The notes under the pieces are model-generated. The model was not told where the DNA came from. It searched no databases and saw nothing but the letters and a program-made list of their open reading frames with translations. From positions 5,477,810 through 5,541,809 of the forward strand of contig CM041197.1 of the NCBI GenBank assembly GCA_023078555.1: 64,000 bases of DNA, written 5' to 3'. The translations under genes and the position numbers were made by a program. Shown here piece by piece: positions 15,101-20,770 of this stretch (the stretch's first letter is position 1; each line of letters opens with the position of its first letter). Source of the DNA: Ulva prolifera (lineage: Eukaryota; Chlorophyta; Ulvophyceae; Ulvales; Ulvaceae).

Positions 15101-15104
15101 ACAT
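15101..15104 (+). repeat. Target-site duplication, left copy (acat)
   Basis: The satellite motif cttcacat stops here and the mobile insertion starts with ctgtccctc. The same four bases recur immediately after the insertion at 20767-20770, where the satellite resumes as acatgacatagg. The uninterrupted site cttcacatgacatagg has acat only once. Confidence 0.8.
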
Positions 15105-15741
15105 CTGTCCCTCTGAATTACAGTAGCCGTGTGAAGGCCGACTTTGAGAGAGAGTGATTGATTACTGTGTGAGATACATGGCCACCTGGCGGCAAAAAGC
15201 GGCAGCCAATACGGTTGATTTGTGACTGTGAAAGGCTGGAGCCTTGAAGTTGAGGCATGTTTTGTGTGTTTGTGCCAAAGGTGAGGTCCAAAATGGCCTA
15301 TTGAGCCTCAGCAAGAAACTGCTGGGCACTCATGCCCGCCACGATTGCGCCCACTGCACTTGTCTGATAATTTCAGGCGGTTGTGGCGCTGCAGCAATGT
15401 CGGTTCTGGGATGTGCAGCCTCTGCCAACACCACCAGCATATGTGTTTCATGTCCTGTCAATCGGCACATTTATCACCTCGCATCCCCAATTCCCGTGAT
15501 CCCATCAATTCATCTCTCATCTCCGTGCGCATGCTGTCTGATCGCTCATTCGTTACGCGAAAAGTTACAGACGCATCTCCAGATCTCAACTAAGGCAGCA
15601 GTCATTTCCGTGAAATCCATCGCAGCTGATCTCGCGCCGAGCTGAATATTTCTGCGCTCTGTGCGATTGAGCGGAGTTTCGGCGTGCGGCATGATGCATG
15701 GATGCTGACGCATGGACAGCTAATGTGATTCGAACCGACTG
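15105..15741 (+). repeat. Left 637-bp terminal direct repeat
   Basis: It matches 20130-20766 at a constant offset of 5025 with no difference that I can see by eye. It starts ctgtccctctgaattacag and ends gattcgaaccgactg. The two ends form an imperfect inverted repeat: 15 of 22 positions match when the end is reverse-complemented. It contains short open frames (15244-15645 and 15345-15593) with no family I recognise. A donor-like caaag/gtgagg near 15279 and an acceptor-like atttcag near 15375 could mark a 5' UTR intron. It probably carries the element's promoter or end-processing signals, but no promoter motif is clear. Confidence 0.9.
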
Positions 15742-15907
15742 AAGGAGCCAAGTTGGCCTGCACGCTTAGGATTCAAATGGGCATGCGGACGAGTCACAAC
15801 TACTCGTACATACTTTGTGATGAACCAGTGGCCGTCTGATCGTGCCTGGATGCATCTAAAGCACTACTCTTGCGCTGTGTGATGCCGGTCGGTGTCACAC
15901 GTCCAGA
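15742..15907 (+). promoter_or_regulatory. Leader between terminal repeat and gene
   Basis: These 166 bp separate the left terminal repeat from the predicted start codon. There is no TATA box or other motif I can name. An in-frame TAA at 15857-15859 precedes the ATG at 15908, so the coding frame does not extend upstream without another exon. The stretch is presumed to be 5' UTR or promoter by position only. Confidence 0.3.
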
Positions 15908-18900
15908 ATGGAAGGTGAGATGCAGCACTCCGCGGTTCCGTGCATATGAGAATTGATAATTTCGAACCAAACCCAGATCCGCTCGGCTACATGTTGCTGA
16001 CCCGTGACGCTGCCCGCAGGGACTTGCGGGAGCTACTTCCGCTTGTCCGTCGAGCAGAGGCTGTTGCTGTCTTTCGAGTACGTGCGTTCTCTCAGTAATG
16101 CAAACTTGGTTCAGCTCTGTATCGATGGTTCTGTAACGCGAGAGGAGGGGGAGAAGGTGACCTACGGCCCAGTTGAGGCCAACTTCGAAGCACTCAACAG
16201 ACTGCTGCGCACTTCAGAGAGTGCGTACACAGCATCAGCGAGAGCCCGGAAGGCGAGAAACTTCCTGCATCATAATGCACCCAAGAAACGCATGCAACCA
16301 GATGGTGCCGCAGTCCCATGTGCATCAGATCAAATTGCCAACAGCTCGGCAGCCAAGCCAGAATATGTCAGAGACCGCGCGTCCCTGATCAAGCACGCAT
16401 CAACGTACGCTCTGTATGTGTGCACTGTGTCCGTGGGTGGCGTGCGTCTTGGTGTCCTCACAATGCCAATGCCATGCTTGCAGGCAAGCGAAGCACCTTG
16501 TGACCACAGGGTCAGTACTGCCTCTGCCCCCACATCAGCCTGGAGAGAAAGCAAGCCAGCACTTCCCGCTCCTCCAAAACGTCCGATTATTCCTTCTGGA
16601 GGGCAGAAGCGAAGGAGGTATTGAGTGTTTGCCATTCAGGAGCTTGGAGCAGGCAGCCAAGTACAGCCCAATCATCGAGGAAGCAATGGTGGCCTTGAAT
16701 GTCAAGACACATGCATCCTTGTGGTCTAATCTGCGAACGGCTTTTCCTGGCCTGAAGAAAACAGCTCTGAACGTGAAGGGCACAAGAGAAGCAGGGCAAG
16801 CAAGGAAAGCAGCAAGGCGTATTCTGGGGAGAGAGCCTATGTACTTCAATCCCAAGATCCACCAGGGCCACCCCCTCACCAGGAGGGTGATGGACCCAGC
16901 GTACGAGTACACCTTCACATGGCAACAAGTACAACGGAATGTGTTCTTGGATGGTGGGAAAGTTGATCCTCAAGCATGGGTGAAGTCTCAGAAGGGCATT
17001 ACTCAGCTCGGCGCAGCGCGTACCCCCATCTGCTACAACCTACTGATGAAAACGGTGAGTGACACCACTGCCTGCTGCTGCTGCTCACCGTTGACACATT
17101 GTTTTCATGATGCAGCCATGGTGCAGGTTGGCATGGCCCCAAAAGTCATGTTCTACATCTTTGCCTCAGCGGTGACAGGGACCCTTCTGGTCACTGCTGC
17201 CAACGGCAGCAAGGCAGCGGACAGCGTGCAAGCTGGGCTGCAACGTTGGACAGACAAGATTGATGATGAGACCAAGCTGGCCATCATGAAGATGCATTAC
17301 GGCTCGAGCGAGAAAGCTGTCCAGAAATTCAGGAAGGCCTCTCCACAGGAGGCTGCCAAGATCTTCCCTGTGGACCAGAGTGAGCTTGTCCCGCAGAAGT
17401 TCACAGATGAGGGTTTCCTGGTATGAATTACACTAGGCCTTTAATCATATGCTCTATCTCGTACAGTTGATCTGGTATTGACTGGCTCAGATCAATTCGA
17501 AACAATCTTACACCACATCGACTGAGCTTGTTCTCTTTCAAAGTGTCATGCTTTCGGTTGCGAGCATTTTTGTGGCTACGTCCGTCCACTTCCACAGCTA
17601 CAAGCATGCTGTTGCACAAGACAAACAATACATCGAGGTGAAAAGCAGGGCCACCTCTCTTACTTACACCATGGGCCTTCATGCCGAAGGAGGGCAGAAC
17701 GGCTGCATCAACATCAACATGGCACACTATTTGTATAACTTGTCTAACGACACAGTCATGCTGCGTGGTCTGATGCCCTGGCCTATGCAATGAACACAGT
17801 GGGGGGACCCCGCGGCGCCATTGAGCATGCAAACATGAGCAACTAGTATACTGTGTGATCACTACCGTCTTAGTTATCAGCTTGTGCACTGCGTCCCTGA
17901 CTTGACTGGCCTTGTGGCAACTGCACGTGATAGACACAATGAAGTCACACACCATGAAGTGTATGCAATGCTTGGGTGCAACACTGCAGAGAGGCAGCTG
18001 CAGTCAACAGCACACATCCATGAACAGTCTGAGTATGCAATGCTTGGGTGCAACACTGCAGAGGCAGCTGCAGTCAACAGCACACATCCATGAACAGTCT
18101 GAGTATGCAATGCTTGTGTGCAACACTGCAGAGAGGCAGCTGCAGTCAACAGCACACATCCATGAACAGTCTGAGTATGCAATGCTTATGTGCAACACTG
18201 CAGAGAGGCAGCTGCAGTCAACAGCACACATCCATGAACAGTCTGAGTATGCAATGCTTGGGTGCAACACTGCAGAGAGGCAGCTGCAGTCAACAGCACA
18301 CATCCATGAACAGTCTGAGTATGCAATGCTTGGGTGCAACACTGCAGAGGCAGCTGCAGTCAACAGCACACATCCATGAACAGTCTGAGTATGCAATGCT
18401 TGTGTGCAACACTGCAGAGAGGCAGCTGCAGTCAACAGCACACATCCATGAACAGTCTGAGTATGCAATGCTTATGTGCAACACTGCAGAGAGGCAGCTG
18501 CAGTCAACAGCACACATCCATGAACAGTCTGAGTATGCAATGCTTGGGTGCAACACTGCAGAGAGGCAGCTGCAGTCAACAGCACACATCCATGAACAGT
18601 CTGAGTATGCAATGCTTGGGTGCAACACTGCAGAGAGGCAGCTGCAGTCAACAGCACACATCCATGAACAGTCTGAGTATGCAATGCTTGTGTGCAACAC
18701 TGCAGGGAGGCAGCTGCAGTCAACAGCACACATCCATGAACAGTCTGAGTATGCAATGCTTGTGTGCAACACTGCAGAGAGGCAGCTGGACTCAATACAG
18801 CACACAGAAGGTGCATGGACCTTACCTGTGTTCAGTGATGCACTCCATATTACACTCTTGACTCCCTCTTTCTCCACATACATCTTGGGATGCCTGCATT

Positions 18901-20041
18901 GAAGACTCAGACTTAGTGGTGTTTGCAGAACAGTGCAAAGTCGAAAGCAGGCAACATGATCGCACGGGCGATCAACGGAACAGAGTACAAGATGATGATG
19001 CTGTTCTACGTGCTGCCGTGGTGCATCAAGCGATGGCTCGGTATGCAGTTGGGCGACCCAGGCTCAAGAGAGGTGTGGGACCAAAAATGCAAGGAGTACT
19101 ACGACTGCATGTCAGACGAAGTGAGCATCACATGGCACAGTATTCATGTGCCCTTTGGCCTGAGCCAGGACAATGCCCCGATTCATCACGGAGCTGCCAT
19201 CGCGATGCTCACTCCGCGAGTGACACCGATCGAGGAGTACAGCACCATCCTGACTGCCGCCGAGCAGCAGCTGGGAATCACGATCCCCAGCGTGGCTGAA
19301 TCTTTCGACAAGTACAAAGACAAGCTGCTGGCAGCAAAGCGCAGATTGCCTGCCGGCGACGCACACGGCAGGCAGAACGCAGACGCGGAACTGCAAGCCT
19401 TGCGCCGCGCAAGAAAGCGAGCGGTCAAGTCACCCAAGTTTCAATTCCTTACGGACGTCAAGTTCGAAAGGTACAAGCAGGCACAGACGAAGCATGCACA
19501 AGCGATTCACGACGACATGCTGGCAGACTACTTCCGAGCTGCAAATGCTGATGATGGCGCACCATGGGAGGCTGTTTTCCGAAGGGAGATGGCCTTCAAC
19601 GACCCCCGGCGATGGTTGTGCTTGGTCGGCGAGCAGTTCCTGCCGCTCGGAAATACGACTCCGGACCTGCACCAGCCAGCCGAGATGCAGGTCGGCACAT
19701 ATAAAGGTGTAGCGAGAGCCTGGACTCTAGATCAGCCCCCAGACTCCCAGGCTTTGCTGCTCTCGAAGAGCTACGACGAAGTCATGCACTTGGAATGCGA
19801 AAAGAGGAACGAAGCAGGCGACGACGGCGCACCTCCCAAGAATCAGAGTTCTATCACAAAGTCTACCAGGCGCCTTTACATCACCGCGCAGATTGTGGCT
19901 GCGGACGCGGGCGAGAAGTTCAAGCCGTTGCTGCCACCCGGATACTACGAAGACAGGGGAGGGCATCCAACAGAATGGAGGCATGGAAATTTCGAAGTTG
20001 TGGGTTCGGGTGGGAAGTTTCCGGAGGCAAAATGGTCATGA
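15908..20041 (+). CDS. Spliced DDE-transposase-like protein, 789 aa
   Basis: Proposed exons are 15908-15914, 16020-16404, 16484-17054, 17127-17420 and 18929-20041. Introns are 105, 79, 72 and 1508 bp; all are GT-AG with acceptors ending GCAG, and the frame holds through every junction (2370 nt). The start is the ATG of a tiny first exon (ATG GAA G). The second exon has no in-frame ATG near its own beginning, and a TAA lies upstream of 15908. Residues about 170-240 are basic and could be a helix-turn-helix. Tc1/mariner/IS630-type landmarks follow in order: W277 with VFLD at D287, the PKVMFYIFAS-x3-GTLLV strand pair (about 326-342), QDNAPIHH with D500, and TPDLHQPAEM with E671 followed by GTYK. 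The spacers D287-D500 and D500-E671 are far longer than the family norm (about 90 and 34), so this is a diverged member or a look-alike. It would act as a nuclear DNA-strand-transfer enzyme. No inactivating change is seen. Confidence 0.6.
17428..17955 (-). CDS. PD-(D/E)XK nuclease-like protein (DUF559/Vsr/RAP-like fold)
   Basis: A 175-residue minus-strand frame lies inside the last intron of the transposase-like gene. Its C-terminal half reads like a restriction-endonuclease-fold core. D108 sits in a beta strand (FHLDVLF), followed by the strand LVAVEVDG carrying E122 and D124, then H128. After these comes a basic helix with R and K residues (RNRKHDTLKENKL) and a CGVRLFRID strand. That order (D, ExD-G-x2-H, helix, G-x-R-x2-R) is typical of DUF559-, Vsr- and RAP-type domains, which act on DNA or RNA. 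The N-terminal 80 residues are cysteine/histidine-rich and unfamiliar; the true start may lie further in, or an exon may be missing. It ends in TAA at 17428. It could be a second element-encoded enzyme or a captured host fragment. No promoter is visible. Confidence 0.5.
   Translation of the reverse strand: MVCDFIVSITCSCHKASQVRDAVHKLITKTVVITQYTSCSCLHAQWRRGVPPLCSLHRPGHQTTQHDCVVRQVIQIVCHVDVDAAVLPSFGMKAHGVSKRGGPAFHLDVLFVLCNSMLVAVEVDGRSHKNARNRKHDTLKENKLSRCGVRLFRIDLSQSIPDQLYEIEHMIKGLV
17962..18789 (+). repeat. 72-bp minisatellite, about 11.5 copies
   Basis: The unit tatgcaatgcttgggtgc... through gaacagtctgag is repeated head to tail. Most units are 72 bp; two are 70 bp, lacking one AG in gcagagaggcag. 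The base after ctt varies as ggg, gtg or atg in a fixed order, which gives a higher-order period of four units (286 bp). The second and sixth units are the 70-bp form. Each unit has two CTGCAG sites around a CAGCTG core. The repeat lies within the long intron, so it should not be translated, although 72 bp is a multiple of three and leaves open frames on both strands. Confidence 0.92.
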
Positions 20042-20129
20042 TAGACTCTTGCTTTTACCATCCGCTAGTGTTACGTCACGCTCGTTCCCCCTACGCCACC
20101 AATGGCTCAGCAGGTCACATAAATGCCTT
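20042..20129 (+). other. 3' flank of the transposase-like gene
   Basis: These 88 bp lie between the gene's TGA and the right terminal repeat. There is no polypurine tract next to the repeat and no clear polyadenylation signal beyond a cataaatg stretch near 20118. The transcript probably ends in the right terminal repeat. Confidence 0.4.
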
Positions 20130-20766
20130 CTGTCCCTCTGAATTACAGTAGCCGTGTGAAGGCCGACTTTGAGAGAGAGTGATTGATTACTGTGTGAGAT
20201 ACATGGCCACCTGGCGGCAAAAAGCGGCAGCCAATACGGTTGATTTGTGACTGTGAAAGGCTGGAGCCTTGAAGTTGAGGCATGTTTTGTGTGTTTGTGC
20301 CAAAGGTGAGGTCCAAAATGGCCTATTGAGCCTCAGCAAGAAACTGCTGGGCACTCATGCCCGCCACGATTGCGCCCACTGCACTTGTCTGATAATTTCA
20401 GGCGGTTGTGGCGCTGCAGCAATGTCGGTTCTGGGATGTGCAGCCTCTGCCAACACCACCAGCATATGTGTTTCATGTCCTGTCAATCGGCACATTTATC
20501 ACCTCGCATCCCCAATTCCCGTGATCCCATCAATTCATCTCTCATCTCCGTGCGCATGCTGTCTGATCGCTCATTCGTTACGCGAAAAGTTACAGACGCA
20601 TCTCCAGATCTCAACTAAGGCAGCAGTCATTTCCGTGAAATCCATCGCAGCTGATCTCGCGCCGAGCTGAATATTTCTGCGCTCTGTGCGATTGAGCGGA
20701 GTTTCGGCGTGCGGCATGATGCATGGATGCTGACGCATGGACAGCTAATGTGATTCGAACCGACTG
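20130..20766 (+). repeat. Right 637-bp terminal direct repeat
   Basis: This is the second copy of 15105-15741 at offset 5025, identical as far as I can read. It is preceded by aaatgcctt, which differs from the satellite flank, and followed by acatgacatagg, where the satellite resumes. Its inner flank lacks the acat duplication. That shows the two repeats belong to one insertion and are not two independent solo insertions. Confidence 0.9.
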
Positions 20767-20770
20767 ACAT
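20767..20770 (+). repeat. Target-site duplication, right copy (acat)
   Basis: This is the second acat, immediately after the element's end (ccgactg). Deleting the element plus one acat restores the ordinary satellite motif cttcacatgacatagg in phase. Confidence 0.8.

Follow-up and report, generated by a model that had tools for sequence, protein, structure and literature searches.

What kind of mobile element carries an intron-bearing, transposase-like gene between two long, identical direct repeats? The question is raised by positions 15105-20766 of a 64,000-nucleotide stretch of the genome of the green alga Ulva prolifera (the window; C2:5477810-5541809), for which an earlier note had concluded that no standard transposon class fits. 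The locus as a whole is best explained as a class II (DNA) transposon of composite-like organisation in which each repeat forms a complete pair of ends, from a lineage that is most likely not Kolobok; we assign this reading a probability of roughly 0.87. The terminal structure, the target duplications and the relatives described below all agree with a DNA transposon bearing long direct repeats, which was among the possibilities first raised. The element consists of two 637-bp direct repeats around a 4388-bp interior:

15101..15104, no strand: left copy of the target site duplication, ACAT (flank comparison and empty-site restoration)
15105..15741, + strand: left LTDR (long terminal direct repeat) of 637 bp, bounded by imperfect inverted termini of its own
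15742..20129, + strand: internal region (INT), 4388 bp, with AAGG at its start and CCTT at its end
20130..20766, + strand: right LTDR, of the same sequence as the left LTDR
20767..20770, no strand: right copy of the target site duplication, ACAT (flank comparison and empty-site restoration)

The two repeats of the window copy show no differences over their full 637 bp, as had been reported. What the earlier note overlooked is that each repeat has inverted termini of its own, and that an antisense nuclease gene lies within the fourth intron. In the family of the window element, which we call W, the opening bases of the repeat (CTGTCCCTCTGAATTACAGTAGCCGT) and its closing bases (CAGTCGGTTCGAATCACATTAGCTGT), one set read as the reverse complement, agree at 18 of 26 positions. 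Three diverged families of the same genome, C3, C4 and F3, have inverted termini inside their repeats that match at 23 of 29, 20 of 29 and 20 of 31 positions, respectively, and a W subfamily matches at 8 of 10. The number of random internal pairs scoring as high, per 20,000, was 2 for W, 29 for the W subfamily, 0 for both C3 and C4, and 10 for F3. In all four families the repeats open with CT and close with TG. The repeats of long terminal repeat (LTR) retrotransposons, according to Kojima & Bao (2022; PMC9587614), have no such inverted termini beyond TG..CA. Judging from these termini, both transposon ends are present in every single repeat.

The 4-bp target duplication was confirmed on both sides of the element. 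When the flanks are joined with a single ACAT they form a dimer of a 168-bp satellite, which matches the same array elsewhere at 336 of 336 positions; the window insertion was therefore precise. The satellite array that hosts the transposon extends from about position 803 to the end of the window (about 57 kb within the window; Tandem Repeats Finder, TRF) and is possibly centromeric.

The genome searched comprises 88.9 Mb in 44 contigs. It gave 38 matches to light-harvesting genes, and for the best of these the nearest proteins in the PDB are of the chlorophyll a/b type, which points to a chlorophyll a/b alga. The 637-bp repeat used as a query returned 114 candidates, of which 40 were scored, and the W-family copy counts given here refer to those 40. 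Ten of them fall in three full-length loci, while the remaining 30 represent single or broken repeats, including the right repeat of a degenerate W copy at C3:3850255. The full-length W loci are

the window copy, positions 15105-20766
C1:11222518-11228099
C1:11878945-11904899, an array

The genome-wide check of copy boundaries called for in the earlier note showed that the boundaries do not arise by chance, with all three full-length loci found sharing the same end bases and with exact 4-bp duplications around 21 of the 22 single repeats that align at both ends (about 0.1 expected by chance; the eight of the 30 with an unaligned end were excluded from this count). The duplications at the full-length loci are ACAT, GATT and, for the array, GTGG. 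The array is a multimer in which six repeats and five INT lie within the single GTGG duplication. Compared with the window INT, its five units carry one or two substitutions across the first 2219 bp and none in the last 1300 bp; one unit, rearranged in the nuclease region, was compared over 1911 bp only, and the units also vary in minisatellite length. This near-identity fits recent unequal exchange. The two repeats at C1:11222518 are identical to each other, and both differ from the repeats of the window at the same 10 sites. A W-subfamily solo repeat with an ATGG duplication was also found inserted in an old C3-type repeat (L032, C9:2025400-2028100); its flanks, once joined, show 74% identity to the C3-type repeat over 248 columns with 11 gaps. 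Beside a degenerate W-type copy, a frame (L053 3-593, C3:3845667) resembles by eye what we take to be the end of a Ty1/copia polyprotein.

The three diverged families, which were reached by genome searches with the W exons, follow the same plan. The C3 copy (C3:6451556-6458431) encodes an exon-5 protein 35% identical to that of W between identical 670-bp repeats with TCAC duplications, and a near-identical copy of this family on contig C5 has TTAG duplications. In this C5 copy, about 19 kb of other sequence separates two parts of the right repeat (C5:8836379-8856244) that overlap by 6 bases, which is probably the result of a later insertion. In the C4 copy (C4:6540502-6546210) the exon-5 protein is 37% identical to that of W and the 670-bp repeats have two differences. 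The F3 family is more distant (23% identity in exon 5) and is represented by three copies with 687-bp repeats and GCTC, ATAT and TCGC duplications. Exact 4-bp duplications flank eight of the nine full-length loci examined in the four families, the exception being the C4 copy. Solo repeats behave similarly: among well-matching copies chosen for inspection, exact duplications were found around seven of eight in C3 and five of six in F3, so that the total over W, C3 and F3 is 33 of 36.

Two further arrangements were noted in these families. Two F3 repeats stand head to tail without INT at C1:4345378-4346748, with one CTG common to both at the junction and with outer CTTC duplications; this looks like a product of joined ends. 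A non-autonomous C3-type copy (L112, C6:5552700-5556200) comprises a left repeat and a shortened interior that lacks most of exon 2, exons 3 and 4 and the terminal part of the nuclease frame. Three bases (AAG) are missing at its repeat/INT junction, resembling the microdeletions reported at KolobokP junctions (PMC9587614). No relatives were confirmed among 31 and 18 pattern stretches checked in viral contigs or among 29 in prokaryote genomes; phages gave none with W exon 5 as the query, and plasmids gave only one chance match (E 0.9) with C3 exon 5 as the query.

The sense gene of the interior was described in the earlier note as five exons that join in frame to encode 789 amino acids. The same length was obtained here, with the exons predicted from the DNA:

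15908..20041, + strand: DDE-transposase-like gene, five exons, 789 amino acids, stop included (exons inferred from DNA)
15908-15914, 16020-16404, 16484-17054, 17127-17420 and 18929-20041, + strand: exons 1 to 5
16950..16952, + strand: D287 codon (NVFLDGGK), putatively the first catalytic residue
19169..19171, + strand: D500 codon (SQDNAPIH), putatively the second catalytic residue
19682..19684, + strand: E671 codon (TPDLHQPAE), putatively the third catalytic residue
17421..18928, + strand: intron 4, 1508 bp, containing the nested nuclease gene and a minisatellite

All four predicted introns are GT..AG, and the joined exons comprise 789 codons. Intron 3 is the least certain, being 72 nt long, a multiple of three, and without an internal stop. 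The 7-base exon 1, ATGGAnG, recurs with its donor in C3 and C4, and comparison with these two families rules out a 799-codon gene model that has a different exon 1. The remaining intron places match by eye in W, C3 and C4, although in C3 exon 3 is disturbed at its end by a 10-bp repeat. It is thus probable that the introns already accompanied the element through transposition before W, C3 and C4 diverged; their retention argues against passage via a spliced sense RNA.

The suggestion that the gene is DDE-like was upheld at the level of motifs, in that D287, D500 and E671 are conserved in the four families. The counterpart of D287 lies, by eye, in F-[LM]-D-A in C3 and C4 and in WWVDA in F3. Around D500 the D and H are invariant across the four aligned families, as are the P, D, H and E around E671, and the spacer of 170 residues between D500 and E671 is very long. 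The DNAPxH ... PDLHxxxE motifs recall the IS630-Tc1-mariner group, in which DNAxxH surrounds the second D and the third motif is PDLxxxxE-like. The 'DDE transposase' label is based on these motifs, on the position of the gene and on the behaviour of the element; the protein is recognised by no profile. The genome also contains a separate, mariner-like host transposase gene of 369 amino acids, with a DDE_3 match just below the cut-off, which is the source of the DDE_3 matches in this genome. Copies of it recur at intervals of 5954-5956 bp within a complex tandem array that has sub-repeats of about 700 bp (C2:6494433-6514099); the gene is further present at C2:6883511 and C9:3145173.

The second gene of the element lies on the opposite strand and is accompanied by a minisatellite:

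17428..17955, - strand: PD-(D/E)XK-type nuclease gene, DUF2726 / REase_MTES_1575, within intron 4
17961..18806, no strand: minisatellite with 11.8 copies of a 72-bp unit, separating the nuclease start from exon 5

The open frame of the nuclease spans 17428-18003 on the minus strand (191 codons, first ATG at 17955). It matches DUF2726 with an E value of 1e-8 (35.4 bits against a cut-off of 24.7), REase_MTES_1575 at 6.6e-7, which is below the cut-off of that profile, and DUF559 at 0.0023. In C3 and C4 a homologue occupies intron 4, likewise on the antisense strand, and in F3 an antisense homologue lies upstream of the last exon; the nucleases of all four families match DUF2726 or MTES_1575. Between C3 and C4 the nuclease differs at 30, 29 and 48% of codon positions 1, 2 and 3, respectively; the third positions are the most diverged, and the frame therefore behaves like coding sequence. 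We take the E-V-D-G-x-x-H string (E-V-Q-G in F3) to be the PD-(D/E)XK motif. Resemblance to plasmid DUF2726 proteins was seen only at E 0.7. The minisatellite of the window begins 6 bp past the nuclease ATG. Minisatellites occur in a presumed intron in all four families, in an earlier one in F3, with units of 72, 153, 131 and 317 bp; they were located at window positions 17961-18806, in the C3 copy, at L050 712-1288 and at L108 1094-2370.

These features suggest a mechanism. The transposase-like protein encoded by INT would bind the inverted termini of the repeats, a step proposed from sequence, and may insert anything lying between a left and a right end by 4-bp staggered joins. With both ends present in every repeat, the mobile unit could be one repeat, the repeat-INT-repeat unit or a longer multimer. 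By analogy with the model put forward for KolobokP, the antisense nuclease may cut within the repeats and so provoke unequal exchange or gene conversion, which would build multimers, keep paired repeats identical and leave solos. Splicing, catalysis, autonomous mobility of a repeat and the role of the nuclease are what we infer. If this is correct, and two unrelated transposases and nuclease folds have come to share one layout, the nuclease would be a working part of a composite life cycle and not a passenger, serving to homogenise the repeats and to gain copies through induced unequal exchange.

Several observations weigh against this explanation and give room to others. At the C4 copy the flanks are unequal (CATT/ATTG), and exact duplications are absent at three of the 36 solos as well as at this one of the nine full-length loci. 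The introns and the expression of the transposase-like gene are read from the DNA. The protein itself matches no Pfam family at E<=10 (done with both N-termini; the last exons of C3, C4 and F3 likewise gave none) and nothing in NCBIfam at E<=1, and no convincing match was found among PDB chains; NCBIfam and one PDB search used the 799-codon N-terminus. Alignment by hhalign with the mariner-like host protein covers the DNAPIH region only (28 columns, P 0.045, probability 1.2%). In the profile comparison proposed in the earlier note, no non-transposase host family matched, and neither did any transposase profile. That silence is what could favour a host gene captured between two unrelated repeats. 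We reject this suggestion and regard it as scarcely credible, since the gene occurs in multiple copies and in each of the four families with examined ends sits between such repeats, though the repeat sequences differ. For the nuclease, only that of W passes its Pfam cut-off while those of C3, C4 and F3 fall below it, and PHROGs labels the W nuclease HNH, weakly (E 0.032). Finally, the solos are equally explicable by recombination between two repeats, and ordinary unequal crossing-over, with no nuclease involved, would likewise account for the multimer and the identical pairs. It is accordingly quite possible, though we put it at somewhat less than even, that the repeats were never mobile alone, with every solo a recombination product of repeat-INT-repeat and the nuclease a passenger. 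Recombination yields exactly the solo within its original duplication that is observed, and no footprint left by excision of a single repeat was seen other than the 3-bp deletion at the L112 junction. What speaks for mobility of the repeats is that the scored W hits comprise 30 single or broken repeats against three full-length loci, that both ends are present in each repeat and that the antisense position of the nuclease is retained across the four families.

The earlier note had also offered an LTR element transcribed on the minus strand, or a non-autonomous derivative of one, whose antisense gene would thereby retain its introns. Repeat pairs that are identical within a copy are what reverse transcription yields, and solos and 4-bp duplications are usual in LTR elements. 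Each repeat, however, has its own inverted termini and CT..TG ends. No reverse transcriptase was matched among the scanned frames of the four families, which were a part of all frames and included 10 further frames of W and 10 of C3, C4 and F3; in Pfam the latter 10 gave sub-cut-off matches only, most of them to a minisatellite frame. Neither a primer-binding site nor a polypurine tract was seen by eye beside the repeats of W and C3, with no obvious primer-binding site on either strand. The inverted termini, the scanned frames and the kept introns led us to reject an LTR retrotransposon as highly improbable. A closer rival is that the element is a diverged member of Kolobok, sister to KolobokP, in which the His-Me nuclease has been replaced by one of the PD-(D/E)XK type. 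Another Kolobok lineage has a PD-(D/E)XK nuclease, and F3 carries two C/DxxH-like strings, DTRH and DGCH, between the second and third catalytic residues. The architecture, repeats of about 660 bp, 3-5-bp duplications and an antisense nuclease also coincide with the description of KolobokP (PMC9587614). The termini are nevertheless CT..TG and not RR..YY, W, C3 and C4 lack C/DxxH in that interval by motif scan, only one or two cysteines occur there in W, C3, C4 and F3, and a motif scan found no CxxC or CxxH (zinc finger) anywhere in the W protein. We consider membership in Kolobok unlikely. The composite-like DNA transposon thus remains our preferred explanation, with an independent DDE-like lineage of KolobokP architecture as the best reading of its sequence; we lean towards a new, alga-hosted eukaryotic DDE superfamily that arrived independently at the same plan of solo-competent direct repeats, a transposase and an antisense nuclease.

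The element can be compared with several known systems. With LTR retrotransposons it shares identical long direct repeats, solos, 4-bp duplications and tandem copies with a common repeat, whereas the inverted termini of each repeat, CT..TG in place of TG..CA and the introns kept in a sense gene set it apart. The case shows that a retrotransposon cannot be diagnosed solely from long direct repeats of identical sequence accompanied by 4-bp duplications and solos, and annotation pipelines could misfile copies such as these as LTR elements. Bacterial composite and IS26-type pseudo-composite transposons, as presented in PMC9587614, similarly have two end-units with their own termini around a cargo; here the transposase-like gene is instead in the interior and not in the flanking units. 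Within the IS630-Tc1-mariner group, the long-spacer superfamily Sailor provides examples of 78-111 residues between D and E and of target duplications of 4 bp (TATA), and the term 'direct repeat' is absent from the text of the Sailor paper (PMC8533490). The present element differs from this group in its 170-residue spacer, in giving no Pfam helix-turn-helix or DDE_3 match, in duplications that are varied 4-mers and not TA or TATA, and in its direct terminal repeats, introns and second gene. IS481EU elements also make 4-bp duplications, but their ends are TGT..ACA (PMC10045372).

The closest architectural precedent is KolobokP, and the statement that no standard class fits was in this respect too strong. 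As described by Kojima & Bao (2022; PMC9587614), KolobokP has long terminal direct repeats of about 450 or 660 bp, solos, multimers and 3-5-bp duplications, together with a DDD/E transposase and, on the complementary strand downstream of it, a His-Me finger nuclease. Its termini are 5'-RR..YY-3', its transposase has C/DxxH, zinc fingers occur in most Kolobok lineages and the hosts listed there are animals only. Its authors describe it as unlike any other DNA transposon, with a nuclease model that awaits experimental validation; in searches of the open-licence PMC literature, KolobokP was the one DDE transposon we came across that has terminal direct repeats. The Ulva element resembles it in repeats of 637, 670, 670 and 687 bp, each with its own short inverted termini, in solos and a six-repeat multimer within short (4-bp) duplications, and in the antisense nuclease. 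It differs in its CT..TG termini in four families, in a nuclease that is of the DUF2726 PD-(D/E)XK type and lies in intron 4, and in its green algal host. In our view the element works like KolobokP but is not to be filed as a member of it, and what is likely to be new is that this architecture arose a second time, probably independently, with another transposase and another nuclease. A second lineage that differs in transposase motifs, nuclease and protist host would offer an independent comparison for KolobokP, and the features common to both (repeat length, inverted termini, the antisense nuclease and multimers) likely reflect the needs of the mechanism.

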